The notes under the pieces: model-generated | Seen by the model: the letters and a program-made list of their open reading frames with translations, nothing else | The model's database searches: none | Told to the model about the DNA's origin: nothing | Program-made: the position numbers and the translations under genes | Virus record (IMG/VR): IMGVR_UViG_3300034019_000586 | Span: 1-64,000 of that record | Source of the DNA: a virus | Strand: one strand, 5' to 3' | DNA: 64,000 nt | In this document: positions 2,089 through 57,965 of the stretch, in pieces | Layout of the letters: every line of letters starts with the position of its first letter | Numbering within the stretch: the stretch's first letter is position 1

Positions 2089-2095
2089 TTAATTT

Positions 2096-5000
2096 ATGGC
2101 AAAAGACGAGATCATATTTGGATTAAGTGGCGGTATAGATACCGATAGCGATGTAAGGAATGTTGCTAAAGGTGATTACCGTATGTTTGAATATTGTAGG
2201 CTTGGTCAGGTTGGTGGTGAGGGGTTTTCTGTAATTACTTCGTGGGGTACGGTAGAAGTTCCCAATGGTGGAATTAGTTCAGAGGACGTAATTGTTGGTG
2301 CTTGCGAGTGGACAAAGCAGTACGCCATAGTTTATTTGGTTTACCGTCCTTCGGCTGACGACCAAATTTGGATGTATGACATTTCACTTGGTACGCATAC
2401 CCTTGTTGCCGAGAGTTCAGAATTTAATTTTAACCCCGAATATCCTGTATTTCACTTAGACATTATTGAGGATTTGGCAAAGTGGGCGGGAGGAGTTTTT
2501 AACGAGGAATTATTTGACCCCACCGACGGTTCAATACTTTACAATTTCCCTTCTCAACTTAATTTAAGAAAGGCATTAGACGGGGAATACACAAGCATAG
2601 ATTGGAGTGTTGTAAGCGCGATCAAGTGGCCTCCACCTTCACCTTCGGTAGTTTATTTCACCGATCAGACAAGGGCAGACAATAAATTAAGAAGAAAACT
2701 ATACCGTTTTAGGGTTCAGTATATCTACGAAAACAATGAGGAAACCACTTGGTCAATGTGGTCTAACCTTGCCTTGCCTACACAAAGCGAGTTTATATCT
2801 GGAAATAATTGGCCTGATTCAAGTCAAGACAACGGTATAAGAATAACGCTTGCAACGGGAACGGAAGCGGTTAAGAGAATTAATTTAGCGGTTCAAACCT
2901 ACGACGACAACAACGGTGGTGTAGATGGTGGGTTTGGGATATTTATTCAGTTTAACAAGTCAGAACTTTCTATACCCAACAATAGCACGTTTACTTACGA
3001 CTTCTACGGAAACGTAAACCTAAAACCGATAAGTAATTTAGATGGCAACTACGATAGATTGCCGATATGGGCAAGATGTCAAAGCGTAGTTGACACTTCA
3101 AAGGTTGCATACACAAACTTGATTGAGGGCTATGACAAAGACGTGGAACTTGACGTAACCACAACACCAGTTTACAACGAAATAATTTGGAATCCGTTAA
3201 GTGGGGTTATTAATGTTTTGTCGGCAAATACATCACCATCTTGTTCTCTTTCATGGGTAACTGACGCTGTTTTTACTGTTGCACAAGGAAATACTTTTTC
3301 AGGAAGTTTTACCCTTACAAACGGGCAAGTATTACTTTTAACCTATACTATTAATCAAACCGATATTGAAGAAGCACTTTTAGAGGCAACGCCCGAACTT
3401 CAAATGGACGTTATTTTAGAAATAATTCTCAATAATTTTGCGGAACAGGCAGAGGCAATATTAGGTGTTTCAGTAAGTGTGTCAGGCAATTTAATTAATT
3501 TAAGTGGCGGGCCTGAATGGGCTGAAAATTCATTTCAAATGACGCCTCAAAGACAAACGCTTTCAACCCCGTCGTTTAAGGTTGGCGCAACGCACCCTTT
3601 TGGGATAGTTTATGGCGATGAGGCTTTTCGTGATTCTACGGTAATTACAGGCAGCGGATTAAATATGTTCGTGCCTTGGTATGCTGATCTTGATTTAAGT
3701 TCGTTTACCGACCCTCGAAATCCATTTACTGTATCTGCGCAAATGACAATTAATCACTTGCCTCCAATATGGGCTAAGTATTATTGGATAGTTTGGCGTA
3801 AAGCGACTGAAATAGCTGATTTTTCGCAATGGATAATTAATGCTTTTATACCTGCGGGAGATGCTGCGGGAACGGCTATTGTGTCCGAAAGTAATAGGTT
3901 CGTAATATCACTTGATAAATTTTACATTGAAAATTACAACGGAGCGAGTATTAATCATGTACCGCAGAAAGGGGATGTTGCGCGGTTTATACGTCAGCGG
4001 CTTAATTCAAGTAGTGGCAACATATCGGATTACGTGCCTACATTTTTTGAGTTAGAGGTAATGGAGTATCTTCCTTCGGCGGTTGGTTCAGATGGGCGGT
4101 CACAGATTATTGTTGAGATATTTGACAGGACTTTAGTTGACATTGATACTTGGACAGGTCAGTTGATTGAAATTTATACCCCACAGCCAACTTTGAACGA
4201 GGACGGAACTTTGTTTGTTGCTCCTTGGCGGGATGGAAGTGAAACACTTGAAATTATTAACCCACACACCAATAGCAGGGCGCATCAGGGTTCAGATGTT
4301 AGTGGTTTGGTTTCGTTTGATGGTGAAATTGGTGACGTTTCTTTTGTAACAACAACAGACCTTACAAACTATTTAGCAGACCCCTATAATGGATTAGTAA
4401 CACTAACCAACAATGACAACGAAACAGAAACCGTTGAAACAGGCGCAATCGTTGATTTAGGTGGTGGTGATTTTAAGATAAACATTAACGGCACTCTTAC
4501 TTTTGATTTTTCTTCGGCAAATGGTGGCTCTTTTGTTTTAACTACAAGCCAACAAGTTTCAGATGGCGTTTCTTTACTTGCTGCAAAACTTAATATTAGT
4601 TGGGGCGACGTTTATGTTCGTCAAAGAAACTATGCTACGGGTTACAATACGGGTTCATTTGGTATTGGAACTAATGCTTTTTGGTTTATTGAAGACCCAC
4701 ACTATTCAGATTATTGGTTGAGTAATATTCACCAATACGGAAGGTTAAACATTGAACTTGATAACGCTAAACAGCAACACAGGATAGCGACTTCAATTCA
4801 TTCTGATTCATATTTTACCGACACCGACATTAACGGAACTTCTTCTTTTTCATTGCTTAACGACAACATAATGGACATGAACCCGCTTTATGGCGAAGTT
4901 GTCAAAACAGTTGTTTCGGGAAGGGAAGAAAAAACGTTAAAATGTATTCAGGAACGGAAGGAGAACTCAATTTATATCAAGCACTATCCCGATGTTGCGC

Positions 5001-5872
5001 AAGTTCCTTCGGGTGATTTAAGAATAGATAGAGAAACCACGTTTTCAGCATGGTATCCGTTAAAAAGTATTTTTGGTTGTATTGATGCGGGAAGTGTTGT
5101 TTTATACCCTAACGGTGAAGTTTTCTACTACGATAGAATTAATGGCGTGTTTGTAAATTCAGGTGGTTCAGGTCAAGTAACTATATCCGAAAGGGATATG
5201 CTAACGGGCAGGGATTTTAAGTTCAGAACAAAGACAAAGGAGATAACGGCACGACTTAATTCAGCGGGAAGCGGAAGTTATGTAAGGAGTTACGTTGATG
5301 TTCTTAATCAAGAAGTTGCGTTTTGTTTTGCTTATGAGGAAGGCACTTCAAACTTTATTTATGAGATACTCACTTACGATGTATTAAGCAACAGATGGAG
5401 GAGCAGATATGACTATAACTTTGAATGGTTTGCTAACTTCGGACAAACACTTGTGGGTTGGGGTACTGACAGTCAAATGTATCTTCATAACCAATCCGAT
5501 TCATTTACCTTTCATGGGGATGAATTTACTCAAAAACTTATCATTGTAAGTAATGAAGACCCGTTAAGAATAAAGAGGTTTCAGAACTTAATTCAGAGGG
5601 CGAACAAAACATTTAACACAAAAGCCTATACCGATTCAAACCAAAGCTACGGGGCGATGGAAACCGAAATGGCCGATTATCTTTTCAAGGTTTATGAAGG
5701 GTACTCAATGGGTTACTTTAGACGTAATAAATTTAGCCCAAGATTTGCCACAGAAGAACTTGCAATGATGAACGGTGAAGAAATGAGGTCATACGGAATT
5801 ACAATGGAATTAACATATACCCCAACTGATAGCGGTGCAGAACTTAATTCAGTTGAGGTGATAACGACATAA
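2096..5872 (+). CDS. Stabilization-type tail protein (crAss-like), 1258 aa
   Basis: A very long, beta-rich protein with almost no Cys. The N-terminus carries GGIDTDSDVRNVAKGDYR, and near residue 200 comes a segment containing NKLRRKLYRFRVQYIYENN followed by TWSMWSNLALP. Both resemble the opening and the repeated segments of the stabilization protein of crAss-like phages, which lies against the portal and ring stack in the virion. Length and position after three connector genes agree. It could alternatively be a large tail tubular protein. A -7 promoter box follows its stop codon. Confidence 0.72.
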   Translation: MAKDEIIFGLSGGIDTDSDVRNVAKGDYRMFEYCRLGQVGGEGFSVITSWGTVEVPNGGISSEDVIVGACEWTKQYAIVYLVYRPSADDQIWMYDISLGTHTLVAESSEFNFNPEYPVFHLDIIEDLAKWAGGVFNEELFDPTDGSILYNFPSQLNLRKALDGEYTSIDWSVVSAIKWPPPSPSVVYFTDQTRADNKLRRKLYRFRVQYIYENNEETTWSMWSNLALPTQSEFISGNNWPDSSQDNGIRITLATGTEAVKRINLAVQTYDDNNGGVDGGFGIFIQFNKSELSIPNNSTFTYDFYGNVNLKPISNLDGNYDRLPIWARCQSVVDTSKVAYTNLIEGYDKDVELDVTTTPVYNEIIWNPLSGVINVLSANTSPSCSLSWVTDAVFTVAQGNTFSGSFTLTNGQVLLLTYTINQTDIEEALLEATPELQMDVILEIILNNFAEQAEAILGVSVSVSGNLINLSGGPEWAENSFQMTPQRQTLSTPSFKVGATHPFGIVYGDEAFRDSTVITGSGLNMFVPWYADLDLSSFTDPRNPFTVSAQMTINHLPPIWAKYYWIVWRKATEIADFSQWIINAFIPAGDAAGTAIVSESNRFVISLDKFYIENYNGASINHVPQKGDVARFIRQRLNSSSGNISDYVPTFFELEVMEYLPSAVGSDGRSQIIVEIFDRTLVDIDTWTGQLIEIYTPQPTLNEDGTLFVAPWRDGSETLEIINPHTNSRAHQGSDVSGLVSFDGEIGDVSFVTTTDLTNYLADPYNGLVTLTNNDNETETVETGAIVDLGGGDFKININGTLTFDFSSANGGSFVLTTSQQVSDGVSLLAAKLNISWGDVYVRQRNYATGYNTGSFGIGTNAFWFIEDPHYSDYWLSNIHQYGRLNIELDNAKQQHRIATSIHSDSYFTDTDINGTSSFSLLNDNIMDMNPLYGEVVKTVVSGREEKTLKCIQERKENSIYIKHYPDVAQVPSGDLRIDRETTFSAWYPLKSIFGCIDAGSVVLYPNGEVFYYDRINGVFVNSGGSGQVTISERDMLTGRDFKFRTKTKEITARLNSAGSGSYVRSYVDVLNQEVAFCFAYEEGTSNFIYEILTYDVLSNRWRSRYDYNFEWFANFGQTLVGWGTDSQMYLHNQSDSFTFHGDEFTQKLIIVSNEDPLRIKRFQNLIQRANKTFNTKAYTDSNQSYGAMETEMADYLFKVYEGYSMGYFRRNKFSPRFATEELAMMNGEEMRSYGITMELTYTPTDSGAELNSVEVITT

Positions 5873-5879
5873 AATTTTA

Positions 5880-5887
5880 TACTTTTG
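5880..5887 (+). promoter_or_regulatory. Candidate -7 promoter box TACTTTTG
   Basis: Exact match to the Bacteroidota TAnnTTTG box, in the 20-nt gap between the stabilization gene and the ATG at 5893. No good TTTG is seen 19-21 nt upstream. The ATG begins 5 nt after the box, so a transcript from here would have almost no leader. It may simply be a chance match. Confidence 0.35.
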
Positions 5888-5892
5888 CAGAT

Positions 5893-6675
5893 ATGGATCC
5901 GATTACAATAGCGATGTTAGGAGCGCAGCTTGTTGCGCCTACGATGCAATTTATTCAGGGTAGGAAGCAGGGTAAGCAAGCCGATGAATTAAGTAAGAAC
6001 TTAACCGATCCTGTTTACAACATTCCTTCGTCGGCTGAGGCGGCTTTAGCTAATGCGGAAGCAATGGCACGTTCGCGTTATATGCCCGGACAGACGGCCT
6101 TTCAAAACCGTATCGAGCAAAGTACAGCCAACGCAATGGGTGACGTAATGCGATTCTCCCGTAGCCCACAAGATGCTATGAGTGCTATTACGGCTATTGG
6201 GGCAAAGAACAACGATATGGAACTTGATTTAGCGTCAAGGGCTGCAATGAGTTATCAGAACAGACAAGGTGATTTAAGACAGCAACAAGGTATCATGGCT
6301 GGTTATGAGGATAAGAAATGGACAAATGATGTGTTGAATAAATTCCTTCGTGATAGTGCTGCTGCGAGTGCTTTGGAAAACGCTTCGATTCGCAATAAGT
6401 ACGAGGCTGTAAAGGGCGCGGCTAATGCTGCGGGTACGTTTATGGGTGGTTTGAAAACGGGTAATGTGGACAGAGAATCAATTTCAACGGGAGTAGAGCC
6501 AATTAATTCAGTTGGCACACAAAATTTACAAGTACCACAATCAAACTCAATGAATACGCAAGGACTGATGGGGAACACCACTTCGCCCGTTGCGGCAAAT
6601 GCAGCAGGGTTATCCCCTGAGCAACTGCAACAATTAATGCAAGCCCTTAATCAAGTAAACTTTAAAGCGTTTTAA
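5893..6675 (+). CDS. Putative internal virion / tail-associated protein
   Basis: A 260-residue protein beginning MDPITIAMLGAQLVAPTMQF, a hydrophobic N-terminal helix, followed by Ala- and Gln-rich helical sequence and a Gln/Asn-rich end. This is the usual look of small internal (ejection) proteins that precede the giant ones, comparable in place to T7 gp14. The next gene starts 1 nt after its stop. No enzymatic motif is present. The function is inferred from order and composition. Confidence 0.6.
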   Translation: MDPITIAMLGAQLVAPTMQFIQGRKQGKQADELSKNLTDPVYNIPSSAEAALANAEAMARSRYMPGQTAFQNRIEQSTANAMGDVMRFSRSPQDAMSAITAIGAKNNDMELDLASRAAMSYQNRQGDLRQQQGIMAGYEDKKWTNDVLNKFLRDSAAASALENASIRNKYEAVKGAANAAGTFMGGLKTGNVDRESISTGVEPINSVGTQNLQVPQSNSMNTQGLMGNTTSPVAANAAGLSPEQLQQLMQALNQVNFKAF

Positions 6676-6676
6676 T

Positions 6677-7987
6677 ATGGCAACTCCAAGTGCTGCACAG
6701 GTATTTACGGGTGTTTCGGGAGGCAGGGGTGATAATTCAGGCTCTGCTGCGGTTTTAGATACAGCCCAAGACTTTCAGCCCATTGCAGATGCTTTTTATC
6801 GAAAGAGGGAAGCCGAACAAGTAAGACGTGCTGCCGAGCAAAAAAAAGCAGATCAGGATTGGTTTAATCTTCAAAAAGGATTTAATCCCGAAGAAGTTGC
6901 ACTACGCGATCAGGATGAAATTATGAGTGGTGCAAACGAGTACAATGATATGCTTGTTGACTTAAAAATGTCGGGAGCAAATCCACAGGATTATTATTCA
7001 GACGCGGGAAAGAAAGCGCGGGAGAAGGAGTTTCAGATAAGAAATTTAACTAAGGCTTCTGGTGAAAATCAGAAGTACGATGGACTTGTTGCTGCTGCTA
7101 TTGAAAAGAAAGACCCTTCGATGGACAGGGCGTATGCAGTAGATTGGTTGAAGCGTTACCGTGCTTTACCAAGTATTGAAGCACAGGCAAAGATGAGGCA
7201 AGAGGAAAACCCGTTTAAGACGGTTTATTCATTTGACAACACGGTTGAAAGGGTTAAGCCTTTTACAAAAGACGTATTGGTAGAAAAAGGCAATAGAGCA
7301 GATCAGGTTTCGGGGTTGAACGAAGATGCTTACAGGGCTAAGGTAAGACTTGATTTACAGTCACCCGCAGGACAATCTGATTTTGAAATGTGGTCAAATA
7401 CAGCAGGGAATGAGGGCAAGACTGCAACTGATTATGAAAATGAAGTGGTTGAGTACGCCAAAGGAACTGTAAAAGAATCTGTAAAAACGACTTATGATGA
7501 ACCGAGAGTTGGTTCGTCGGGTTCGGGTTCAGATGGTGGCGGTAGCGGTGGATGGCAAAACAAACTATCAATCAACATAGAAAGCGGAAAAGACGATAGA
7601 CTGATTCAGGGAGTACCAAACAGCATAGATGTAAAAAGAAAAGGCACTAATGATGATTTGCCGCCCGTAGAAGTTATTGGTGAGGATGGCAAAACAACAA
7701 TTGCGTTTCAACCCATACGTTTTTTGAAAACTAAAAACGGGTGGAAAGTTTACGGCAAAAGATTTTCAAAGTCATCAGCAGGGTCGTATATGCCACAAGA
7801 AACAACAGAATCCTATGAAACAGTTGACTACGACTTAAATCATGGTACTTTCGTTTCTCAAATGAACGGGTTTGATATTTACAAGGACGTTGAAGGTGCT
7901 ACAAAAGAAAGTAAGTCGGGTGGAACGAAACAAAATTCAAGCAAGGGTAAAACAAAATTCACGGGAGTTCCCGAAGGAGGTTTTTAA
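6677..7987 (+). CDS. Putative internal virion protein, charged/helical
   Basis: A 436-residue protein. The N-terminal third is charged helical sequence (YRKREAEQVRRAAEQKKADQ). A Ser/Gly linker near residues 275-290 leads to a basic beta-rich C-terminal part. The stop overlaps the start of the 1986-residue gene by 1 nt, tying it to the ejection-protein set. No family is recognised. Confidence 0.6.
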   Translation: MATPSAAQVFTGVSGGRGDNSGSAAVLDTAQDFQPIADAFYRKREAEQVRRAAEQKKADQDWFNLQKGFNPEEVALRDQDEIMSGANEYNDMLVDLKMSGANPQDYYSDAGKKAREKEFQIRNLTKASGENQKYDGLVAAAIEKKDPSMDRAYAVDWLKRYRALPSIEAQAKMRQEENPFKTVYSFDNTVERVKPFTKDVLVEKGNRADQVSGLNEDAYRAKVRLDLQSPAGQSDFEMWSNTAGNEGKTATDYENEVVEYAKGTVKESVKTTYDEPRVGSSGSGSDGGGSGGWQNKLSINIESGKDDRLIQGVPNSIDVKRKGTNDDLPPVEVIGEDGKTTIAFQPIRFLKTKNGWKVYGKRFSKSSAGSYMPQETTESYETVDYDLNHGTFVSQMNGFDIYKDVEGATKESKSGGTKQNSSKGKTKFTGVPEGGF

Positions 7988-10900
7988 TGCCAAACAAGAT
8001 ATACGATTTCATGAAGTCAAACGGCCTCACCACTAAGGATGAGGCTACGTTTTTAAAGGAGTATTCTACTCCTGAAAAGTCGCGTGAACTGCATAGGTTT
8101 ATGACGGAAAATGAATTAACTACAAAGGATGAAAATTCATTTTATTCAGAGTATTTTGCACCAAAGGGGGCATCATCAGAGGTTGGCGCGGCTTCTGGGG
8201 TAGATTCAAACGCGCCACAACAGCCTTCTATTCCGAGTGGAGCAAGTCCTGAATACCTAAAACAACTTAGTGAAAAGAATTTTGTAAAGAGGATTAACAA
8301 CCCGTCTAAATTTATTAAAAATGCCGACGGTAGTAAATCAACTCACAAAATGGCAACAGCCGAAGTTGATGGCAAACAAATTGCCTTTCCTACTATTGTA
8401 GAGCAAAACGGCAAACTTGTAGAATTACCAATAAATGAGGCTATTGATTTCGCCTTAAAAAACAATGAATTTGCTGAATTTGCCAAAGCTGAGGATGCTC
8501 AGTGGTACGCAGAAGGAGGATATAAAAAAGGAACTCCGCTTGAAAATTTAGAAAAGTCGCCACAACAAGCGGATGGAAACACTTTATTGCCGAGTGGACT
8601 AACACTTGACGAGCAAAGACGGGCGGTATTAAGTCATGCTTCTAAAATTACTCCGCAACAGGATCGTAAATTAAGTTTTGTACAGGATAACGAAAAGATT
8701 CCTTTCAGCACAAGGCAAAAGGCATTAAAAGGAACGCAATTTGAATCAGTTGCGCCACTTTCGGAACAACCTATTGCGGGTGAAAGAAACAAGCAGTTAG
8801 AATCTCAGGTTAAACAAAACGAAAGGCAAAACGAAAAGAGTTCACTTGCGGTATTAGCAGAATCTCACAGAAACAACCTTTCAAAAGATGTTGACTATAA
8901 AACAACGCAAGAAAAGTTTAATTCAGCTTATGAGAATTGGCAAAACGGACAAGGTTCTCCCGAAGATGTAAAACTTGCGGAATCAGAACTTAACAGTCAG
9001 CTTGAATTACTTGATCGTGACTATATCGGTAACGAGGCAACTAAACGTGGTGCGCTTGCCTTTATGGAGAAAAAAGACAAGTACGACCAAATTACTTCTA
9101 AGGTAAAAGCGGGTGAATCAATTTCCGAAACAGAAAAGAAATTTCTTTACGACCTAAGAAAAGACGCACTTTCGGCAAAAGCGGCATCAGAAAGGGTTGC
9201 CTTGATGGATATTGAAGATAGTGTTGATATAGACACATTCAATAAAGAAATGGCAACACTTTCGGCTATGCAGGGAAGTATGACGGCAGATGAGTACAAC
9301 GCCAAAGTTCAAGAAATTACGCAAAGGACAGGTGTTAATCAGGATGTCATAAATTCACTTGATTTAGGGTATAAGGAGCTTGCTTCGACGGTTGAGTTAT
9401 CTAAGGTCACAGAGGCACAAAATAGAAACATAGAAACAGAACGCGGGTTAGACAAAATGCGTTCCGAACAAAGAAAAGAGGGTGCGTACATGATACCCGA
9501 AGCATTGCGCGGACTTGTAGGCGCAATGGGTACAATGACTTTGAGCGCAGCTAAACTACCAAAGTCGCTTATGGGCCTTGACGATGAAACAAAATACGAT
9601 TGGACAGATAAGTTATATGACTTTGCGGAAAACGAAGTAGATGAAAGTCAGGGAACTTGGGGCGCATTACAAGATGCTCCTGCATATTTGAAATATTCTT
9701 ATATGCTTGGTCAAGGCGTTGGTTCGGTTGCGATGTTTGCTGCGGGTGGTGGCGTTTCGGCTGCGGTTGGTATGCCTTCGACGGTTGGTACAATAGGCAC
9801 GGCTTTTATCATGTCGCAGCCTGACAACTACACAGAGGGTATAAATAGCGGAATGAGCGCACAAGAGGCAAGAATATACTCTAATGTGGTTAGTTCTGCG
9901 GAAGCATTTGCGGAAGGAATTATACCTGATTCAAACTACTTCAAAAACCAATTAAAAACAACAATACTTTCAGCATACAAAAAGACGGGCTCGGTAAAAG
10001 AAGCGTTAAAAGTTGTTCCAAAAGTAATTGAAGGAATGGCGGTTAGCGGAAGTAAAGAGGGTGCGGAAGAAGTTGTTCAGACTTTTGCGGGTGACGTAAC
10101 AAAAAGTTTTCTTGACACCGTTGCAGGTAGTGAGTATTACAATTCTACTTGGAATACAGAATCGTATAAGGACGCTATTTTGTCGGGCGCACTTACGGGT
10201 GGATTTATGAAGATGTTTGGTTCTTCAAGCCCTAAGAGTGAAGATACGCTTAATGTAATGCGGGATATGATTGATTCAAGGGAATCCATTGTTTCTAACA
10301 TTGCTAAGTTCAATCCTGAATTAAGTACGCAAGTTGACGAGGTTTTGTCTAAGGCAGAGGAAGCAAAGGCTGGATTGGAATCTCATTCAAAGTGGAATGA
10401 TTTAACAACGGCAGCACAGAACAAGGCACTTGATTTAGTGTGGCAGATGGAACTTGCGGAGGACGCTAAGAAAAGAGTTGAGCAGTTTGGTATTGTCGAT
10501 GAAAATAGAAACAAAGAATCCGAAAGGCTTGCGAAGGAATTGAACGATGTTTTTACTGATGATGCAAACACAAAACGGTACGCAGACACAGTTATAAGAC
10601 AACTTCAACAGGCCCGTGCTGAATTAGGTGTTGAATTTGACCCAATGGAAGATTTACCTGAATCGGTTGTAAAAACATTTGATCGGGTGGATGAAGGGTT
10701 GCCTACCGACCCCGTTGCGGTAAAAGAAGCAAGTGATTGGCTTTACTCAAAGTACAAGCAGTTGTCTGAAATGAAAAATGACGACAACCGTAAATTAACT
10801 ATTGAGCAAATTGAGGCAATTCAATTACAATTAGGAGAAGATATTGATAAACTTGAAAATTACAGAAATGAAAACGAGCAACAACAAAGAACAGAAGAAA

Positions 10901-13900
10901 AAACCCAACCTGAAACAGAGGCTACTGATGGCGCAATTACCGAAGCCGAAAAGCAACAAATCAGAGAAGAAATAATTACTCTTAAAGCACCTGAAATAAC
11001 GGTAGAATCCAACACAGCTGAAGTACTTGAAGAAGTAAAGCAGGGTGAAGATGGAATCGTTGAACCAAAAACAGAATTAATTGATGGTGAAAGAATGAAA
11101 GATGATTTTCAGGACGAACCATCACAAACACCAAAAACAGAATTAATTGATGGAGGTCAAACAGAAGAAATTAAGTCCACCGATAATGTTTCTGAAAGTA
11201 ATACAGGCGGAGGCGTTGACGGGGGAAGTGGTGTTGATGGAGTATTGGAGGGCGGGGAGGATGTCAAAGCGGGAACGGAAGCGAAAGGTGAACAACCCGA
11301 TGCAAGTGATGTAGAGACATTTGAATTAGTTGAAAACGAAGGCAAGTGGAAGGCAACAACTAAAACATATAAAGGTAGAGAAACGGGTAATTGGGTTTTT
11401 GACTTATTAGATAAAAAACAAAAAAGCGAATACGAAAAAATTAAAGATGAGGCAGATACCTATGGAACAAAAGAACAAGCGGAAGTAAACTTAAAAAAGT
11501 TGCAAGACTTTGAAAGTAAAAACAAAGAAGCCTTTGTAAAAGCAAAAGAACAAATTGACAATTTTAAACAAGCAGAACAAAAAGAAAATAAAGATAAAGC
11601 GGATAGGCAAAAAGTATATGACAAAACAGCTAATCAACTTTCTGAATTATCGGATTTGGAATTTGAAAAGTTAATAAATCTAATTGACAAAGATGTAAAA
11701 TCAACTTTAGAAAAAAGATTTGGAGACCGTATTGAAAAGAAGCAATTATTTAAAAATAGAATTTCCGAAGCCTACCACCAAGCCAAAGCAGACGGAAGCA
11801 ATCCCGAACTTGTAAAAGCAGTAGAATCCCTACTATCTAAAGAACCCTCGACAGAAAAGGAAAGCGAAGTTGTTTCCGAATCCGAGTTAAGCAAAGAAGG
11901 ATTTACAGAATCAAAAGTTCTCAATCAACTTTATTCAGACACAAAGAAAAAATATGGTGATAAAAAAGGCGCGGCTATTTATGACGCGGCTACAAGATTG
12001 GTCAATCCTAATAAAAATGAAATCGTTGAAATTAGGAGTAATGGTGTCGTGGTAAAGGAAGGTAACAAATTTATGTTGCTCCCATTTGGAAATACTGATG
12101 CCAATAGTAAGAAGTGGACTTTGTATAAAGGTATTGATGTTACCGATCAGTTTAACGTTTCGAAAGAACCCGCAAAAATCGACACGAAAACAGAACAGGT
12201 CGATCAGGTGGACGTGAACAAAATAGAAACAAAAGCAAAAGAACTTCTTACAGGGTTAAACGAAGGAAAAAAGCAAAAAGATCAGTATGAATTAAATGAA
12301 GACATTGAAAATGTAGAGGGTTACTATGTCATATCTGCAAAAAACAAAAAAGGCGAAGAAGTTTTCAACTTAGTTGATTCAGAAGGAAAAACTCCAAACG
12401 GAGCATCAGCCAATTGGAGAACATCAGAAATAGTGTCTCAAGATATAAGAGAGCTTACGGGAAAACAAGAACGGGTCGATCAGGTGGACACGAAGGTAGA
12501 AAACAGAGGAAATTCAAGCGAAATAAAGTTTACTTCTGAAAAGAAAGTACCAACAACGTATAGGCTTATTGAGGCAGATGAATTACAGCCGTCACACCTT
12601 TCAAGTGGTGAGAGAAACCCAATGCACCAAATAGCAAGTGCGCAGCCAAAGGAAAGAAACGACGCGGGAAGTAAAATGGCACAGGATAAAATTGCTAATG
12701 ACCCAAACATAGCGGAAGTTGGTGAGTCGCCTAATGCTTACTTCGGTGCGCCAATAGTAAACAAAAGAGGTGAGGTAATTCAGGGTAACAATCGAAGTAT
12801 CGGATTAAAAAAACATTACAGAGGGAACGGTAAAAAATACAAAGCAGACTTAGAGGCGACGGCTGAAAAGTTTGGATTTACCAAAGAGCAGGTTGCGGGA
12901 ATGAAAAACCCAATACTTGTTAGGGAAGTTGACGTAAACGACCGGGAAGCAATTGAATTAGGTCAATACGATGTAAAAGACCTTGAAACAGGTGGCAAAC
13001 AAAGAATAGACCCAATTGCTACAAGTCGCAAGATAAGCCCGTCAGACAAGGCTAAAATTGCGTCTATTGTTTTTTCGGGTGACTTCAAAACCATAAAAGA
13101 ATCTATACGGGCAAACTCTAAAAAAGTAGCAGAGGTATTAAAAGCATACTTGAATCCAGCACAAGGTAAAAACACATTTAATTCAGACGGAAGTTTTACT
13201 TCTCAGGGTATGGATGATGTTTCTGCTGTCATATCTAACTTCTTGTTTGACGGTGGAAAAGCAGTATTGCCCGAAGTGTTTGATAAATTACCATTTACGG
13301 CTAAAGAAGGTATTCAAAAGGCATTACCATACATTCTTTCGGTATCAGATAACAAGTCCTTAAAAAGCCATGTTCAAAACGCTATGCTTGCTTTCTATGA
13401 ATTTAATTCTTCGGGGCAAACAAATTTTGATGCGTGGTCAAATGAACTTGACTTATTTACGGGTGGAAGTCCCAAAGATGCTTTTTTACCAATTGAACTC
13501 GCTATTGCCAAAAAATTAATTGATGCAAAAAGCCAAAATGAAATAAAGGATATATTTCAAAAATACGAGGCACTTACTTCTGACAAGCCAGCGGATATGT
13601 TTAATGAGGCACAGGAAGGAATGAGCAAGGCAGACGCCATAAAACAACAATTTAACGTAGAATACAATGAAAACGAACAAAGAACAAACTCTAAACCACA
13701 GAGTGAAGTTAGCGGTGAAAGAGTTGATTCAGGAAAAAAAGCCGAAAAAACTCAATCAACAACAATCTTCACCGAACTTGACACAGCAGACAAAGGAAGA
13801 TCAGTAAAAGCCCGTACAGAGGCTAAAAAAGCACTCAAAGAAAAATACGGTGACATAATCGAAAAAGCCAAAGACATAAATAAAAACTTTGATTCATACG

Positions 13901-13947
13901 TCGAAAAGCTAAAGGCAAAAGGAATAATAACTAAAGTTGAATGTTAA
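7987..13947 (+). CDS. Giant ejection-type polyvalent protein with ParB-like domain, 1986 aa
   Basis: The N-terminus has two copies of a roughly 35-residue helical motif (FMKSNGLTTKDEATFLKEY, then FMTENELTTKDENSFYSEYF). Next comes a domain around residues 90-190 that is common in phage structural polyproteins (DGSKSTHKMATAEVDGK, then QIAFPTIVEQNGKLVELP). Gly/Ala-rich hydrophobic stretches occur around residues 505-620, then a long Glu/Lys-rich coil. Near residues 1520-1720 lies a ddrB-type ParB-superfamily domain with the GNNRSIGL motif. Size and place between small internal proteins and another 1560-residue protein suggest a virion-packaged protein delivered into the cell with the DNA. The ParB-like part may act on incoming DNA. 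Whether it is cleaved is unknown. Confidence 0.7.
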   Translation: MPNKIYDFMKSNGLTTKDEATFLKEYSTPEKSRELHRFMTENELTTKDENSFYSEYFAPKGASSEVGAASGVDSNAPQQPSIPSGASPEYLKQLSEKNFVKRINNPSKFIKNADGSKSTHKMATAEVDGKQIAFPTIVEQNGKLVELPINEAIDFALKNNEFAEFAKAEDAQWYAEGGYKKGTPLENLEKSPQQADGNTLLPSGLTLDEQRRAVLSHASKITPQQDRKLSFVQDNEKIPFSTRQKALKGTQFESVAPLSEQPIAGERNKQLESQVKQNERQNEKSSLAVLAESHRNNLSKDVDYKTTQEKFNSAYENWQNGQGSPEDVKLAESELNSQLELLDRDYIGNEATKRGALAFMEKKDKYDQITSKVKAGESISETEKKFLYDLRKDALSAKAASERVALMDIEDSVDIDTFNKEMATLSAMQGSMTADEYNAKVQEITQRTGVNQDVINSLDLGYKELASTVELSKVTEAQNRNIETERGLDKMRSEQRKEGAYMIPEALRGLVGAMGTMTLSAAKLPKSLMGLDDETKYDWTDKLYDFAENEVDESQGTWGALQDAPAYLKYSYMLGQGVGSVAMFAAGGGVSAAVGMPSTVGTIGTAFIMSQPDNYTEGINSGMSAQEARIYSNVVSSAEAFAEGIIPDSNYFKNQLKTTILSAYKKTGSVKEALKVVPKVIEGMAVSGSKEGAEEVVQTFAGDVTKSFLDTVAGSEYYNSTWNTESYKDAILSGALTGGFMKMFGSSSPKSEDTLNVMRDMIDSRESIVSNIAKFNPELSTQVDEVLSKAEEAKAGLESHSKWNDLTTAAQNKALDLVWQMELAEDAKKRVEQFGIVDENRNKESERLAKELNDVFTDDANTKRYADTVIRQLQQARAELGVEFDPMEDLPESVVKTFDRVDEGLPTDPVAVKEASDWLYSKYKQLSEMKNDDNRKLTIEQIEAIQLQLGEDIDKLENYRNENEQQQRTEEKTQPETEATDGAITEAEKQQIREEIITLKAPEITVESNTAEVLEEVKQGEDGIVEPKTELIDGERMKDDFQDEPSQTPKTELIDGGQTEEIKSTDNVSESNTGGGVDGGSGVDGVLEGGEDVKAGTEAKGEQPDASDVETFELVENEGKWKATTKTYKGRETGNWVFDLLDKKQKSEYEKIKDEADTYGTKEQAEVNLKKLQDFESKNKEAFVKAKEQIDNFKQAEQKENKDKADRQKVYDKTANQLSELSDLEFEKLINLIDKDVKSTLEKRFGDRIEKKQLFKNRISEAYHQAKADGSNPELVKAVESLLSKEPSTEKESEVVSESELSKEGFTESKVLNQLYSDTKKKYGDKKGAAIYDAATRLVNPNKNEIVEIRSNGVVVKEGNKFMLLPFGNTDANSKKWTLYKGIDVTDQFNVSKEPAKIDTKTEQVDQVDVNKIETKAKELLTGLNEGKKQKDQYELNEDIENVEGYYVISAKNKKGEEVFNLVDSEGKTPNGASANWRTSEIVSQDIRELTGKQERVDQVDTKVENRGNSSEIKFTSEKKVPTTYRLIEADELQPSHLSSGERNPMHQIASAQPKERNDAGSKMAQDKIANDPNIAEVGESPNAYFGAPIVNKRGEVIQGNNRSIGLKKHYRGNGKKYKADLEATAEKFGFTKEQVAGMKNPILVREVDVNDREAIELGQYDVKDLETGGKQRIDPIATSRKISPSDKAKIASIVFSGDFKTIKESIRANSKKVAEVLKAYLNPAQGKNTFNSDGSFTSQGMDDVSAVISNFLFDGGKAVLPEVFDKLPFTAKEGIQKALPYILSVSDNKSLKSHVQNAMLAFYEFNSSGQTNFDAWSNELDLFTGGSPKDAFLPIELAIAKKLIDAKSQNEIKDIFQKYEALTSDKPADMFNEAQEGMSKADAIKQQFNVEYNENEQRTNSKPQSEVSGERVDSGKKAEKTQSTTIFTELDTADKGRSVKARTEAKKALKEKYGDIIEKAKDINKNFDSYVEKLKAKGIITKVEC

Positions 13948-13951
13948 TACC

Positions 13952-14437
13952 ATGAAAAAGTCACTTCTTACAGCAGAGTATAAAAAGCAAATTAATGAGG
14001 CAGCAGCTCGTGAATTACTTGTTTCAAATACCTATAAACAATTCTCTAATTGCATGGAGGGTGTGGGGTACTTCGGTTCAGCTAAATTTTTTAAGTCTGA
14101 ATCAAGTGATGAACTTGAACACTATCAAATATGGGCTGACTATGCAAATGACAGAGGTGATATTCTGGACGTATTAGCAGTTCCCGCAATAACAACAAAA
14201 CCAAAGACTCTTAAAGAGGCTTTTACGGCCTACTGTGAACTTGAACTTAATTTAGGCAAGTTTTACAATGATTTATACGAAAACTGTGACGACGCCCCTA
14301 TGCTTCAACAGTTGCTTACCTTTGTAGAGATACAGAGAAAGAGTGTAGGTGAAGCATTAGACTTTCTTGCTACACTTGATTTATGTGGAGATGATCGTTC
14401 AGCATTACTTCTATTTGACAAAGAATTAAATGGCTAA
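13952..14437 (+). CDS. Ferritin-like diiron protein
   Basis: A 161-residue all-helical protein that aligns by eye with bacterial non-haem ferritin (FtnA) along its whole length, including the end LLLFDKEL against FtnA LYFIDKEL. The ferroxidase ligands appear kept: Glu21, Glu54 and His57 (SSDELEHY), a Glu at 96 or 98, and Gln128. The third-site Glu of FtnA seems lost. I start at ATG 13952 rather than TTG 13939, just after the previous stop. It overlaps the next gene by 8 nt, between two giant ejection-type proteins. Likely activity is iron oxidation or storage, or redox protection. A structural four-helix role is also possible. Confidence 0.75.
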   Translation: MKKSLLTAEYKKQINEAAARELLVSNTYKQFSNCMEGVGYFGSAKFFKSESSDELEHYQIWADYANDRGDILDVLAVPAITTKPKTLKEAFTAYCELELNLGKFYNDLYENCDDAPMLQQLLTFVEIQRKSVGEALDFLATLDLCGDDRSALLLFDKELNG

Positions 14438-17400
14438 AAATCCTTGTGTATATACTTTGAATGATGGTAGAACCTTGTCTTACGATGAGGTTCGTGCTTT
14501 TATGCTTGACAACTTCGACATGGTTTCGGAAGGAAAAACCGAGCCGACAGCCGAAGAAAAACCAATGTCAGCAGCCAGAAAGAAAGCCGAAGCCGCAAGA
14601 AAAAAAGCAGAGGAAATAAGAAAAGCAACGGGTGGAACTCTTATGTCCGCGCCTAAACTCGTCGCAGCAGCACTTGATTTGTATGCCACGCTTCTTGAAA
14701 AATACGACGATATTACTAAGGCACTCAATGAATTTAGAAAGTCAAAAGAGTACACCGACCTTTCAGACGAGGATAAGAAAATAGTCGATCAGGAAATAGG
14801 AGATGAGGAAACGGATGAAACTGAAATTGATTTTGAAAAAGCGGAAGGCGAAACAGAACTTGCAAGCAGAGGTAAAAGAATTTCAGAAGACGATAAATTT
14901 AGAGAAAAACTTAATGGGTTTAACAAGACCTATAAGTCAATAAATGTAGAAGCAGCAACAGCACTTGTTGATGCTTACTATTCTCAAAATGTATCAGGAC
15001 AAGAAAACGGTGGTAAAAAGGCATTAGAGTTTGCGAAATCACTTCTTATTCAAGATTTAGAAGATGGTATTGGTCAATCTGAATATGTTTTTTCAAAATC
15101 AGCATTTGGTGTGTTGCTTGCTCAAAAGGTGCTATCAGATGCGCAGTTGCTTGGTGACCTTGATTTGGCAACAGAGGCTAATAATTTCCTTGACCTCGTG
15201 GGTAGAAGTTCAGGTTTGAAAGTAGCGTTAATGCAAGCCAAAATAAGCCTTGACGCACTTGGTTCATACGCAACAGCCGAAGCAGCAAATCAAGAAAAGG
15301 TTGGTAACGAAACCGTATCTTCTGGTCGTAAGAAAAAAGACGTCGTAAAAGATATTAAGGAAGAATCCGACAAGGCAAAAGCAGAGGCCGCAGATGAGGT
15401 GTCAGAAAATTTAGACGTTACCGATATTATCGACAACTCAAAAGAGCCACCAAAACCACAGAGCAAAAAAGCAAGCGGTAAAAAGGCAGAACTTGAAAAG
15501 AAAAGAAAGGCTGCGATAGAAAGGGTAAAAAAGGCATTTGCCAATAAGGGTGCGGGTGTGCTTATGGCGGCAACTCCCGAAAATGCGGAGCGTGTGGCAG
15601 CACTTACCGAACTTGCAAAGGTTGAGATTGAATCAGGTTTATACACACTCAAAGAAGTAATTGCGAAACTTGCCAAAGACCTTAATGGCGTTCTTTCTAA
15701 AAAGCAAATCAGCAACGTATTGATTGGCGAATGGAATGAACTTGCTAAGATAGCAGAGGAGGCTAAACGTACTGAATCAATTGAACTACTCAAAGACGCA
15801 ATTGAGAACAAAGTAAGCGACAAGGCACTAAAAGCACTTGCGAAAGCATTGAAAATGGCTGACCCCGAATTTATCAAAACGATGAATAAGGGCAAGCGCA
15901 TGAGTGACGCTCAGATCGTGGAGGAAATACTTAAAGACCCACAGAAAGCGCAAGACTTACTTTATGCGGCACTTGGGGCTTTAATTGATGATGTTAATTC
16001 AGGAAACCACTTGGATTCAGTTGGTGTAAGTAAGCCAAAGAGCATGAGTGATGAGGAGTGGGATGCAGTAAGAAAGAAGTACGTAATTAATAAATTCAAA
16101 CAGTTTGTAGATACTCTTATCCCACTTGCAGATGAGAAGTCGGTATCAATGGCCGATCAAAAGCAAAAGCAGGAAGAAGAAAGTTTGGAACGGGCATGGT
16201 TGAAAGCAAAGGAAAGACGGGACAAAGCCAAAGCCAACGCAGAGAAGCGATATGAAGATCGTGAAAAAGAGAAACTTGCAGAAGCCCAATTAGAAGCACG
16301 GGAAAAAGAACTTGCGGAAGCAGAAAGACTTTGGAATAACTTTATTAATCAAAAGGTCAAAGAAGTAGTTTCTAAGTTTTACAAAAACCCAAATTCAAAT
16401 CAGACATTTGTTGAAGCACTTATAGAAGCCATTCCTTCGCTATCTGTACAACAGGCAATTCAAATTGCAGAAAAGGTTCAGACACAGATCAACAAAAAAC
16501 TTGACCAACGCGACAATAAGAGAATTAAAGAACTGATTAAAGAAATGACAGATGGCCGTGAAGATTCATCGGTTAATGAAGTCATGCAGAAAATCTTCTT
16601 TAATCGTGGCGCAATTAGTCAATTCGGATTTACCAATATGCTTTCAAAGTATCTTGGGTATAAGGGGCTACCCCAATACGCTATTGCTCAGATAACACAA
16701 CTTGCGCAACAGGCGGCAAGGATGAAAGCGGGTGCGCTAAGAACGCAAATTATGAATCAAGCCAACACTATTGCGGCAAGTTATAGCAATACTGCATGGC
16801 AAAATTTATATGAGATACTAACCGAAACACTTGTAAGAAACTTGCTTTCTAAAGTAAAGACTGCATTTACAGGTGGTTTCAGCGTTAGTTTCTTTGCTAT
16901 ACCCAACGCGATAAAAAAGACTTTAATTAATCGTCCTGCTAATACAATTAGGGCGTTAAAGTTTACGGGTAAGAATTTATACAATGGAAGATGGGGCGTT
17001 CGCAATGCCTTCATGGAATCAATGTATAGACACAACGACCCATTTGCGCAAGCAACCGAACGTGCTGACAACATTTATTCAAAAGACAGGGCTTGGCAAA
17101 GAGCAAGAAAAGCGACATTCTCAGAGATTAAAAAACTATGGGGTGTTGACAAAGGCAGGGCTGCTTCGATGATCGCAGGTAGGGCTTTAATTGAGGGTAC
17201 TTTTCAGGGTAAATTACCTATAACCAATATCATTCCTGATGCTATGGCGTTTATGAACTACATAGCATATAAATTCATGCAGGATATGAATTTAGCTTAT
17301 ATGGCGCAGGACAAGACCATAATGGAAGGTATTAAGCCGTCAGACCCTAAATTTAAAGATGAGTTCTTAAAGAAACTCTCAATGACACCTGCTCAGTTAA

Positions 17401-19112
17401 AGAGTATAGAAACGGCAGTTGACAATGAAATAGCGCAAGCGGTATCACAAGGCGTTCCTGTTCCAAAAGGATTCAGAAAAGATCGTATCCGTGAAATGAT
17501 TGCTCAGAACACAGACGAAATGTTGTTTCAACGAGCAATGGAACAATCGGTTTATGATATTGGTATGAACAATCCAAAAAGTGCGCTTGGTGCTTTTGCT
17601 TATGGTAATTTGAGAAAATTAAAGTTTAAACCACAGGTAGAAGGCCAACTAAGTTTCTTGGGAATGTCAATTAATTTACTTAGTACAACACTTGGACTTT
17701 TTAGCCGTCAGGCAATTGTTCTTGGTGAAAGGGCTGCTCAATATGCCCCAATTATCGGTACTGCTGCTTATTTGTATCCAAAAAGGTTTGATTACAAGGA
17801 CAATAAATTAGTTGTGCTGAAAGATGATAAAGATAAGGCATATAATATGTATAAATCAGACCCAAAAGAAGCCGCATATCGCATTAGTGTTTCTGTTGCG
17901 GTACTTGGTCTTGCTGCTTATATTTTGGCTAATTGGTGGGATGATGAAGAAATAATTGATCCCGCAACGGGCGAAAAAGTTGTTGACCCCGAAACAGGAA
18001 AGCCACTTACAAGACAAAGATATTTAATGAATGGTAAGGTTGACTTCTTTGGGAGTTCTCCAAAAATAAGAAGGGAAGACAGAGGTATAGACCCGACTAA
18101 TACCATGAGAATTTATTCAGACGACGGAACTTTTAGGGACGTTCCGTTTGAGGCAATGGGTCAAATGTATGCCTTTGTAATGGGGCTTGGTCAATTAAGA
18201 GATCAACAGAGATATGGTGTTGAAAAAGTTGTGTTGGACGCAGACAAATTAAAAGACCCAACAACAATAAAAGCCGAACTTCAACAATCGGCTGAAATAG
18301 ACTGGGCTTCACTTGCAACCGCTTCTGCTGCTAATGCTGCTAATACCGACTTTCAAACAGTATCGAAAATTGTAAAAGTGCTACAAGCAAGGGAAAAGGC
18401 CGATATACCCGCAGGACTATTTGACGTGCTTGTGATTAACCCCGCAAAAGGAACTGTGAATCCAGCCGTTGTAAGATCATTACAAGAGCAATATTACAAT
18501 ATGAGTGATAGGTATAAGACCTACATTAAACTTGAAAGCGACGTACAAAATTTAGGAACATATCTTGCAAAAGACGTATGGTTCTTAGACCCGTGGATTG
18601 AAAACAGGAAGGACTATGAAAGCGTAGATATTTTTGGAAATAAAATAGCATACCCACCTATTTATAATGATTTTCTTGGTTCATTTGGAAGCACAACTAA
18701 CTATGTAATGGCTAACCATGTGGAAAAAAACAAGGATATGTACAGTCTTTTCATGGTAGATGGTAAATACATTCCATATCCCGCAAGATACATTTATAGA
18801 CCATCTAAATTTGATATGGCAGGGATGGACAAATCAGTTAAGGTTGAGGATAATCTTCAACGCATGATTTCTGATAAAACCTATGAAAACTTTGGTGCTG
18901 TCGTTAAGCAGAATATGGACTTAATTAAATCAGTCACCGATTACGACCAAAGAAGGGAATTACTTGATAATATGTTTGATTTTGCAAGTTATCAAGCTGT
19001 TTTATTTGCTTTTCCTAATTCACAGCGTAAGCCGTCAGATACCGAAGTTAAAAAAACACCACAAGAAAAAGAGGCAATGAACTCATTTATAATATCAAAT
19101 TTACCGAAATAA
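14430..19112 (+). CDS. Giant ejection-type protein with membrane segments, 1560 aa
   Basis: Long Ala/Lys/Glu-rich helical N-terminal half (residues about 40-690), then a more hydrophobic C-terminal half. That half has amphipathic or membrane-like stretches, for example GGFSVSFFAIPNAIKK near 815 and a clear transmembrane segment RISVSVAVLGLAAYILANWW near 1150-1170. The layout fits an internal virion protein that crosses the envelope during DNA entry (compare T7 gp16) and the large polyvalent proteins of other phages. No peptidoglycan hydrolase motif was seen. The ATG overlaps the end of the ferritin-like gene. Confidence 0.65.
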   Translation: MAKNPCVYTLNDGRTLSYDEVRAFMLDNFDMVSEGKTEPTAEEKPMSAARKKAEAARKKAEEIRKATGGTLMSAPKLVAAALDLYATLLEKYDDITKALNEFRKSKEYTDLSDEDKKIVDQEIGDEETDETEIDFEKAEGETELASRGKRISEDDKFREKLNGFNKTYKSINVEAATALVDAYYSQNVSGQENGGKKALEFAKSLLIQDLEDGIGQSEYVFSKSAFGVLLAQKVLSDAQLLGDLDLATEANNFLDLVGRSSGLKVALMQAKISLDALGSYATAEAANQEKVGNETVSSGRKKKDVVKDIKEESDKAKAEAADEVSENLDVTDIIDNSKEPPKPQSKKASGKKAELEKKRKAAIERVKKAFANKGAGVLMAATPENAERVAALTELAKVEIESGLYTLKEVIAKLAKDLNGVLSKKQISNVLIGEWNELAKIAEEAKRTESIELLKDAIENKVSDKALKALAKALKMADPEFIKTMNKGKRMSDAQIVEEILKDPQKAQDLLYAALGALIDDVNSGNHLDSVGVSKPKSMSDEEWDAVRKKYVINKFKQFVDTLIPLADEKSVSMADQKQKQEEESLERAWLKAKERRDKAKANAEKRYEDREKEKLAEAQLEAREKELAEAERLWNNFINQKVKEVVSKFYKNPNSNQTFVEALIEAIPSLSVQQAIQIAEKVQTQINKKLDQRDNKRIKELIKEMTDGREDSSVNEVMQKIFFNRGAISQFGFTNMLSKYLGYKGLPQYAIAQITQLAQQAARMKAGALRTQIMNQANTIAASYSNTAWQNLYEILTETLVRNLLSKVKTAFTGGFSVSFFAIPNAIKKTLINRPANTIRALKFTGKNLYNGRWGVRNAFMESMYRHNDPFAQATERADNIYSKDRAWQRARKATFSEIKKLWGVDKGRAASMIAGRALIEGTFQGKLPITNIIPDAMAFMNYIAYKFMQDMNLAYMAQDKTIMEGIKPSDPKFKDEFLKKLSMTPAQLKSIETAVDNEIAQAVSQGVPVPKGFRKDRIREMIAQNTDEMLFQRAMEQSVYDIGMNNPKSALGAFAYGNLRKLKFKPQVEGQLSFLGMSINLLSTTLGLFSRQAIVLGERAAQYAPIIGTAAYLYPKRFDYKDNKLVVLKDDKDKAYNMYKSDPKEAAYRISVSVAVLGLAAYILANWWDDEEIIDPATGEKVVDPETGKPLTRQRYLMNGKVDFFGSSPKIRREDRGIDPTNTMRIYSDDGTFRDVPFEAMGQMYAFVMGLGQLRDQQRYGVEKVVLDADKLKDPTTIKAELQQSAEIDWASLATASAANAANTDFQTVSKIVKVLQAREKADIPAGLFDVLVINPAKGTVNPAVVRSLQEQYYNMSDRYKTYIKLESDVQNLGTYLAKDVWFLDPWIENRKDYESVDIFGNKIAYPPIYNDFLGSFGSTTNYVMANHVEKNKDMYSLFMVDGKYIPYPARYIYRPSKFDMAGMDKSVKVEDNLQRMISDKTYENFGAVVKQNMDLIKSVTDYDQRRELLDNMFDFASYQAVLFAFPNSQRKPSDTEVKKTPQEKEAMNSFIISNLPK

Positions 19113-23196: not shown

Positions 23197-23967
23197 ATGA
23201 TTGAAGATTATTCAGACGAAAAAGTAGGTGTATTGCCTGAAAACGTACACCTAAAAGATCATGTGATGGTCGGCCTTGTCAGGTTCGGTCAACGCAGTGC
23301 TTCTGTACCCGTAAGAAAAGGTGACAGAACGATCAGAACAGAGAAAATTAATGTTGCCATTGCTGAGGACTACGGAGCGCAATCCCTTGTTGACGAGGAC
23401 TTGCTTATCCAAAGACAAATCAGATCGGGTATTGACTTTAATTCAATCCCTCACAAGGGCGGTCATATCCTTGACTTCGGTTCGGTTTGGTACTACACCC
23501 GTAAAGCAAAGCCATTTGAATTTCATTCGCTCAATGCTTACTTGTCACGGGAGGGCAACACGATTTACAACAATACCTTTGTTCAGCAGACATTCTACAA
23601 AGACTGGTTTGCGGCAAATCCTGTAAGTCAATGGAGAATGCCTTTCAGTCCTGAATCAGTTTCAAATTTTGCCGTAAGCTGGCAACTCATTGACGCTAAC
23701 GGAGGCAAATGGGAATGTGTCGCACCACAGCTTCAAAAGCCAAATTGGATTCCGCGACTTACTCATTTTTCGATAGCGAACCCAAAATCGGAATCGGTCA
23801 ATATCGTTGAGGGCGCAAATCCGGGTTACGATGAGGCCACTCATTCATTCATTGTTCAGCCGGGTTGCAAGATCAGGCTATTCTTCATTAACTCTCCAAT
23901 GGGACAAAAAGAGTTTTCTGATGAAGTTGAATTTGACTTGGATAGCAATAAAATAAATCTAATCTAA
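23197..23967 (+). CDS. Putative tail-associated structural protein
   Basis: A 256-residue protein, soluble, with mixed beta character and no signal peptide. It closes the fibre gene group. Its 3' end overlaps the 3' end of the convergent HNH endonuclease gene by 4 nt. No family is recognised; a virion or adsorption role is inferred from location. Confidence 0.6.
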   Translation: MIEDYSDEKVGVLPENVHLKDHVMVGLVRFGQRSASVPVRKGDRTIRTEKINVAIAEDYGAQSLVDEDLLIQRQIRSGIDFNSIPHKGGHILDFGSVWYYTRKAKPFEFHSLNAYLSREGNTIYNNTFVQQTFYKDWFAANPVSQWRMPFSPESVSNFAVSWQLIDANGGKWECVAPQLQKPNWIPRLTHFSIANPKSESVNIVEGANPGYDEATHSFIVQPGCKIRLFFINSPMGQKEFSDEVEFDLDSNKINLI

Positions 23968-24458
23968 TCGTTTAAATTATCAGACTTAGGGAGATTGTTG
24001 TGGGTTAGTCCTTGCTCCCTAAGTCTTTTTCTGTATTTTTTTAAGGATTCTGAATTTTTAAGCCTGCTTTCAATTGTCCATTTGGGCTTTTTCCATAAAT
24101 TGTTTTGATGAACATGATTGATGTTTTCTTGTCTTGTACACCACTCTAAATTGTCTTTATGGTTATTGGCCTTATTTGCATCTTTATGATTAACCTCTGG
24201 CTTTCTTTCTGTATTTTCAATGAAGTGCATACAAACAATACGGGAAAGCCTAAAAGAAGTTCCTTTATTGTTTTTTGACAGTTTTACAGCATAGTATCCT
24301 TTTTTACTGATTGATGGCTTTAAGATTGTTTTTGGCTTTTTTATTTTCATTCCGTTTTTACAAAGTACGGTTCGGTCTAAAGCCATTATTCTACCGTGAG
24401 AACTTACCATATAAAGCCCCTCATACCCAACAACGTCTTTCCAAATTTCTTCTTCCAT
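23964..24458 (-). CDS. Free-standing HNH homing endonuclease (NUMOD4-HNH)
   Basis: A 164-residue protein with an N-terminal NUMOD4 motif (EEIWKDVVGYEGLYMVSSHG) and an HNH core around residues 90-115 (EVNHKDANKANNHKDNLEWC). These are typical of phage homing endonucleases that cut a site in related genomes and copy themselves there. It is the only leftward gene in the late block between 0 and 25 kb, so it looks like an insertion between two rightward genes. No intron is evident around it. Confidence 0.85.
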   Translation of the reverse strand: MEEEIWKDVVGYEGLYMVSSHGRIMALDRTVLCKNGMKIKKPKTILKPSISKKGYYAVKLSKNNKGTSFRLSRIVCMHFIENTERKPEVNHKDANKANNHKDNLEWCTRQENINHVHQNNLWKKPKWTIESRLKNSESLKKYRKRLREQGLTHNNLPKSDNLND

Positions 24459-56386: not shown

Positions 56387-56390
56387 TACT

Positions 56391-57954: not shown

Positions 57955-57965
57955 AATAAAGACAG

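Follow-up and report, generated by a model that had tools for sequence, protein, structure and literature searches.

Why a phage would carry a ferritin gene wedged between two genes for giant proteins is the question raised by the open reading frame (ORF) at positions 13952-14437 of the window, i.e., the whole stretch of DNA analyzed here (bases 1-64000 of the IMG/VR virus record IMGVR_UViG_3300034019_000586, which totals 66,722 bases). The product of this ORF is a genuine five-helix maxi-ferritin subunit of the FtnA/H-type. We tentatively favor, with somewhat less than even confidence, the reading that it would be a late-made ferroxidase of the virion/ejection module, associated with the virion rather than serving as a general iron store.

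Identity and fold of the ferritin

13952-14437, plus strand: ferritin of 161 amino acids (aa) with an ATG start, assigned by Pfam, structural model and ligand alignment

The description of this ORF as a ferritin-like enzyme in an earlier note, made without database searches, was borne out. The protein matched the Pfam Ferritin family (PF00210) with 61.9 bits (E = 8.4e-17, curated cut-off 24.5) and PHROG 16594, a group without assigned function, at 5e-7, while phmmer matched it to solved ferritins at 1e-9. The top phmmer matches were invertebrate ferritins by a small margin, despite which there was no evidence of a eukaryotic origin. AlphaFold run on the single sequence gave an unusable model (predicted local distance difference test, pLDDT, 50), which was remedied by an alignment of 33 Bacteroidota ferritins (mean pLDDT 93.2, predicted template modeling score 0.87). 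The model has helices at residues 8-38, 41-67, 87-111, 115-145, and 149-159, the last being helix E of the maxi-ferritins, and alignments with maxi-ferritins span residues 1-161. Foldseek TM-scores were 0.91-0.92 against the ferritins of Escherichia coli (EcFtnA) and Vibrio cholerae, and VIA-align reached Z 23 over 156-161 residues with the T. maritima, E. coli, human H, mitochondrial, and frog M ferritins.

Other members of the superfamily fitted less well. Dps was rejected because helix E is present and the intrasubunit ligand set is complete, and bacterioferritin because Q128 and S131 stand where E127 and H130 of site B are expected. The protein scored 33 bits against the NCBIfam non-heme ferritin equivalog, for which the cut-off is 178. 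No close relatives were found among the viral or genome contigs searched, and tblastn against phages returned only matches below 33%, to unverified contigs or tape measures.

Ferroxidase site and third iron site

The ligands E17, E50, H53, E94, and Q127 of EcFtnA correspond to E21, E54, H57, E98, and Q128 of the window ferritin, and the site tyrosine Y24 is kept as Y28. With identity to bacterial ferritins otherwise as low as about 26%, the intact core ligands argue for selection on the site. S131 stands in place of E130, and D53, I127, and K130 take the places of E49, E126, and E129 of the third site, although glutamate occupies all four positions in 52/52 ferritin rows of the comparison (some 44 of them distinct, almost all bacterial); the same replacements set the protein outside the bacterial FtnA subtype. 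The ferroxidase-type residues announced in the earlier note are thus retained at the two-iron center and its tyrosine, while E130 and the third site are lost. A set of E, E, H, E, and Q with a small residue resembles the ligand type of eukaryotic H and mitochondrial ferritins. With the third-site ligands gone, ferroxidase activity or detoxification is a better fit than long-term iron storage, and the protein is probably a ferroxidase rather than a mineral store.

The two giant neighbors

7987-13947, plus strand: giant protein 1, 1986 aa, with a DdrB-like ParB domain at residues 1518-1648
14430-19112, plus strand: giant protein 2, 1560 aa, whose N-terminus (MAKNPC..YTLNDGRT) matches MANPCGFTYTDKDGVT of a giant in a second phage record, L239

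The gene of giant 1 stops at 13947, 4 bp ahead of the ferritin ATG, and that of giant 2 starts within the last ferritin codons, which confirms the overlap with the 1560-residue protein gene reported earlier (8 bp, 14430-14437). From base 6 to 19112 all genes run in the same direction and almost without gaps, and a scan for Bacteroidetes-type promoters gave no site near the ferritin and matches no better than chance. The DdrB-like ParB domain of giant 1 (PF18763) was found at E = 1.6e-27; residues 1507-1901 are 31% identical to part of a 5391-aa giant of Bacteroides phage BS-TP4, and the homologue in BKO1-TP3 carries the annotation 'DarB-like antirestriction'. No relatives of giant 1 were found in the viral contigs searched, and no Pfam domains in giant 2. 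Close contigs of the window phage stop short of the ferritin, L002 beginning in giant 2 and L008 ending upstream.

Giant 1 opens with two imperfect repeats (window 7987-8170), IYDFMKSNGLTTKDEATFLKEY and LHRFMTENELTTKDENSFYSEY, and the giant of the Manatee Spring phage, a relative, likewise opens with two, HSLFEAQGYTKGLDAF and HSLFEERGYTKGIDAF. These N-terminal repeats may be a signal for packaging or sorting.

The same arrangement in a distant phage

A scan of IMG/VR with phage ferritins recovered two nearly identical records, L238 (3300037189_015940) and L239 (3300032307_000539), in which a 163-aa ferritin gene lies between genes of 1222 and 1418 aa. The 1222-aa gene overlaps the ferritin by 7 bp; the 1418-aa ORF reads on directly after the ferritin stop, the next ATG lies one base past that stop, and a likely real start at MANPC would give a protein of 1369 aa. 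Manatee (portal 1e-263), elemo, and phi38:1 have structural modules colinear with the full order (GroES-TerL-portal-348-major capsid protein-257-228-294-1540-...-507-1222-ferritin-1418), and the portal of the record is 23% identical to that of the window. Homology of the 1418-aa giant to the elemo giant covers residues 2731-3335 of the latter (E = 7e-8), so that the ferritin sits at a break in a protein that is single elsewhere. In elemo and Manatee, a single giant of 3694 or 3859 aa also takes the place of the window's 1986-ferritin-1560 series, and no match to a ferritin fused as a domain was found inside the single giants of elemo, Manatee, and phi38:1.

The N-termini of the second giants of the window and L239 are alike, and 0/775 background ORF starts score as high. 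Homology was not detected between the first giants (1986 vs. 1222 aa); their C-terminal ends share K.G.I....C, a likeness above background over 12 residues only, and we did not rely on it. E, Y, E, H, E, and Q are also present in the L239 ferritin, with A, D, and A replacing E126, E129, and E130. Among 21 viral ferritins tabulated, the EQ.EEE motif is lacking only in the window and L239 proteins, a count biased towards keepers because the motif was one of the two patterns used in the scans. The two proteins are about 26% identical, yet have the five direct di-iron ligands and the tyrosine in common. In the tree, the L239 ferritin groups with the phage ferritin L224 (99/94) and the window ferritin, whose branch is long, stays unplaced; constraining the two to group was not rejected (approximately unbiased test, p-AU 0.09), nor does the tree support their grouping. 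Common descent and convergence are both possible. As a distantly related phage has the same arrangement, the giant-ferritin-giant pairing is, on the sequence evidence, no accident.

These observations bear on two alternatives. A passenger gene (moron) could have been caught by chance in an intergenic seam, with a role unlinked to the virion proteins; the rarity of the ferritin in the family and its unplaceable position in the tree would suit such a gene, which is nevertheless very improbable given the tight coupling on both sides, the intact ligands, and the recurrence of the arrangement, with related giant N-termini, in a second distant phage. Structural exaptation, in which the subunit or an oligomer would build an internal core or ejectosome and the iron chemistry would be vestigial, is improbable to a lesser degree. 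It would agree with the long branch and with the loss of E126, E129, and E130, but does not require ligand retention, while five ligands and the tyrosine are kept in the window and L239 at such low identity. Ferritin cages also contain four-fold symmetry. A likeness of this kind to the T7 internal core, with its four-fold gp16 subunits (PMC8954989), speaks for exaptation as well.

The virion gene operon

6-2088, plus strand: three head-module ORFs of 252, 193, and 249 aa, from head-module comparison
2096-5872, plus strand: 1258-aa virion structural protein (phrog_14478), homologous to phi38:1 gp97 and elemo/Calle structural proteins
5893-6675, plus strand: 260-aa ORF of the same operon, placed by position only
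6677-7987, plus strand: 436-aa ORF directly upstream of giant 1, placed by position only
58610-61090, plus strand: terminase large subunit (TerL), by match to phrog_6681
61164-63572, plus strand: portal protein, by match to phrog_6547

The first and third head-module ORFs match elemo structural proteins with their order kept, and the 436-aa ORF occupies the place of structural or unnamed proteins of 450-549 aa in relatives. TerL and portal are 21-26% identical to their counterparts in Cellulophaga and Flavobacterium podoviruses, with which the order of the head module also agrees. We infer that the neighbors of the ferritin are giant ejection proteins, because of the DdrB-ParB domain, the place after the TerL, portal, and head genes, and the annotation of the relatives' giants as 'structural protein'. 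Giant 1, being large, encoded in a late virion operon, and equipped with this domain, corresponds to the phage polyvalent/ejection proteins; phage P1 packages its DdrB into the head, and proteins with DdrB-ParB domains have been predicted to be injected (PMC5512222).

Elsewhere in the window, a protein with a GroES-like C-terminal domain (53000-53860) is followed by several ORFs and then by TerL. At least three ORFs within 53000-58613 carry glycosyltransferase domains (PF00535, PF13524, and PF13733/PF02709, galactosyltransferase family 7), and the segment looks like an inserted glycosylation cassette, since GroES directly or nearly directly precedes TerL in relatives. A putative HNH/NUMOD-type endonuclease, recognized by eye, is encoded at 23964-24458 on the minus strand, opposite to the tail module at whose end it lies.

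Ferritins of other phages

Two scans of IMG/VR yielded some two dozen ferritin loci, near-duplicates included, whose frequencies are not unbiased because the database favors contigs with head genes. A first group has the ferritin between a window-family portal and scaffold-like or capsid genes (L221, L229, L230, L232, and L235; L231 and L233 break off past the ferritin); a second has it either between TerL and portal or immediately ahead of the portal (L225, L227, L237, L240, L241, and L242); and a third has it near portal and capsid genes (L222 and L226, the latter a fusion). The L223 ferritin is placed within a tail module, and in L219 and L224 the ferritin precedes a TerL of the window family by 5-6 kb. 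The coupling to virion genes asserted in the earlier note therefore is real and recurrent, in L238/L239 as in further groups with portal, terminase, or capsid neighbors, although the association of phage ferritins with virion genes is not universal. No DdrB-ParB domain was found in the other ferritin-bearing phage records, though the controls gave no match either.

In the second group the EE of the helix-B motif is changed to GE, and the portal of L225 is of the portal-MuF type. The ferritins of L226 (9638-10480) and L223 (9542-10441), located in head or tail modules, are fused to N-terminal extensions about 110-140 residues long.

Possible role of the ferritin

The virion-associated ferroxidase that we favor draws on the near-abutment or overlap with both giants, the recurrence in L238/L239, and the shared motif loss, together with the portal, terminase, or capsid neighbors of other phage ferritins, the packaging of DdrB, the peptides of a ferritin in phage Sajous1, and the loading of encapsulins (both below). 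The ferritin would be translated late with the giants through coupled initiation, and would use its two-iron site to oxidize and sequester Fe(II); O2 or H2O2 would be consumed, and Fenton damage around packaged or entering DNA suppressed. It could then enter the head as cargo together with the internal proteins, shielding the packaged DNA, or else be delivered as unfolded subunits alongside the giants. Packaging is the weakest link in this chain. The more specific proposal, that a ferroxidase ferritin is an internal virion protein in one group of Bacteroidetes-type podoviruses, loaded with the split giants and either delivered upon entry or active in the capsid, is conceivable but unlikely.

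An assembled 24-mer cage of the ferritin type is 12 nm across (PMC8346489), and the T7 nozzle opens only to 30 Å (PMC8954989). Injection as an assembled cage is unlikely, because such a particle could not pass the ~3-nm tail channel of a podovirus; any ejected ferritin would have to travel as refolding subunits, like T7 gp16. Were it not ejected, its action would be within the head or confined to the producing cell.

Several observations weigh against a place in the virion. Operon position alone can be explained by expression timing, and no cargo-targeting motif was identified in the window ferritin. The ferritins of L217, L218, and L220 lie among genes of DNA replication or nucleotide metabolism. 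The ferritin was absent from all seven records of isolate or complete relatives (0/7), and of 44 records searched, many of them fragments, only L238/L239 matched the ferritin profile; being this rare, it is not an essential virion part of the family.

The main rival, which we consider nearly as likely, is a purely intracellular role, in which the protein would be a late iron/peroxide sink protecting the host cytoplasm during assembly and the operon would merely give its timing. Such a role has already been proposed for the Dps and Mn-catalase of gut Bacteroidetes phages of the Gratiaviridae (PMC8008677), and it accords with the mismatch between cage and nozzle, with the ferritins found outside virion modules, and with the dispensability of the gene in relatives. 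Taken alone, however, it leaves unexplained why the same giant-pair junction is used in two distant phages, and why both ferritins lost the third-site and E130 residues.

The earlier note's interpretation as a whole is partly supported. Its suggestion that host iron uptake is exploited (a 'Ferrojan' role) received no support in this analysis; for another phage, whose ferritin-like protein was seen by mass spectrometry, tonB/feoB mutants were still susceptible (PMC10892097). A maxi-ferritin kept between two giants links iron chemistry with the assembly or entry of virions. Virion iron has been raised by the Ferrojan Horse idea, with scarce molecular evidence, and the loci described here offer concrete phage families (portal phrog_6547 type and portal-MuF type) for the question whether virions carry iron.

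Comparison with known systems

Ferritins, phage Dps, and phage ferritin annotations are prior art, the last already present among BFVD matches; in the open-access literature we found no description of a ferritin between giant ejection proteins, or of the third-site motif loss there. The window ferritin shares the five-helix subunit, helix E, the ligands, and Y24 with bacterial FtnA (EcFtnA, TmFtn, and the Vibrio ferritin; root mean square deviation 1.2-1.6 Å), but has no E126, E129, or E130 and a D for E49, hence no FtnA-type third iron site; its C-D turn is three residues shorter, and it is encoded in a phage operon. Eukaryotic H/M-type and mitochondrial ferritins have the same direct ligands, a glutamine in site B, and a small residue at the position of FtnA E130, and resemble the window protein in structure (Z 23 to human H, mitochondrial, and frog M). 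The L238/L239 ferritin shares gene order and motif loss with it, at 26% identity.

Among phage systems, the Gratiaviridae and Flandersviridae of gut Bacteroidetes carry Dps and Mn-catalase, likely against oxidative damage; these are mini-ferritins or catalases, not maxi-ferritins, with no ejection-gene flanks described (PMC8008677). The 'ferritin' gp217 of Sajous1, a Vi01-like phage, is a proposed tail-operon member detected with 10 peptides by mass spectrometry, and titers on tonB/feoB mutants were broadly similar; this phage family is unrelated to that of the window, and gp217 was assigned by Phyre2 at 22% identity (PMC10892097). Encapsulins load ferritin-like ferroxidases into HK97-fold shells for which a viral origin has been described; this Flp/IMEF cargo is decameric or dimeric and carries targeting peptides (PMC8346489), of which none was identified in the window ferritin. 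The likeness lies in a ferroxidase inside an HK97-fold shell, as proposed here for the phage head, and a virion ferritin, if true, would be a natural encapsulin-like use of that head.
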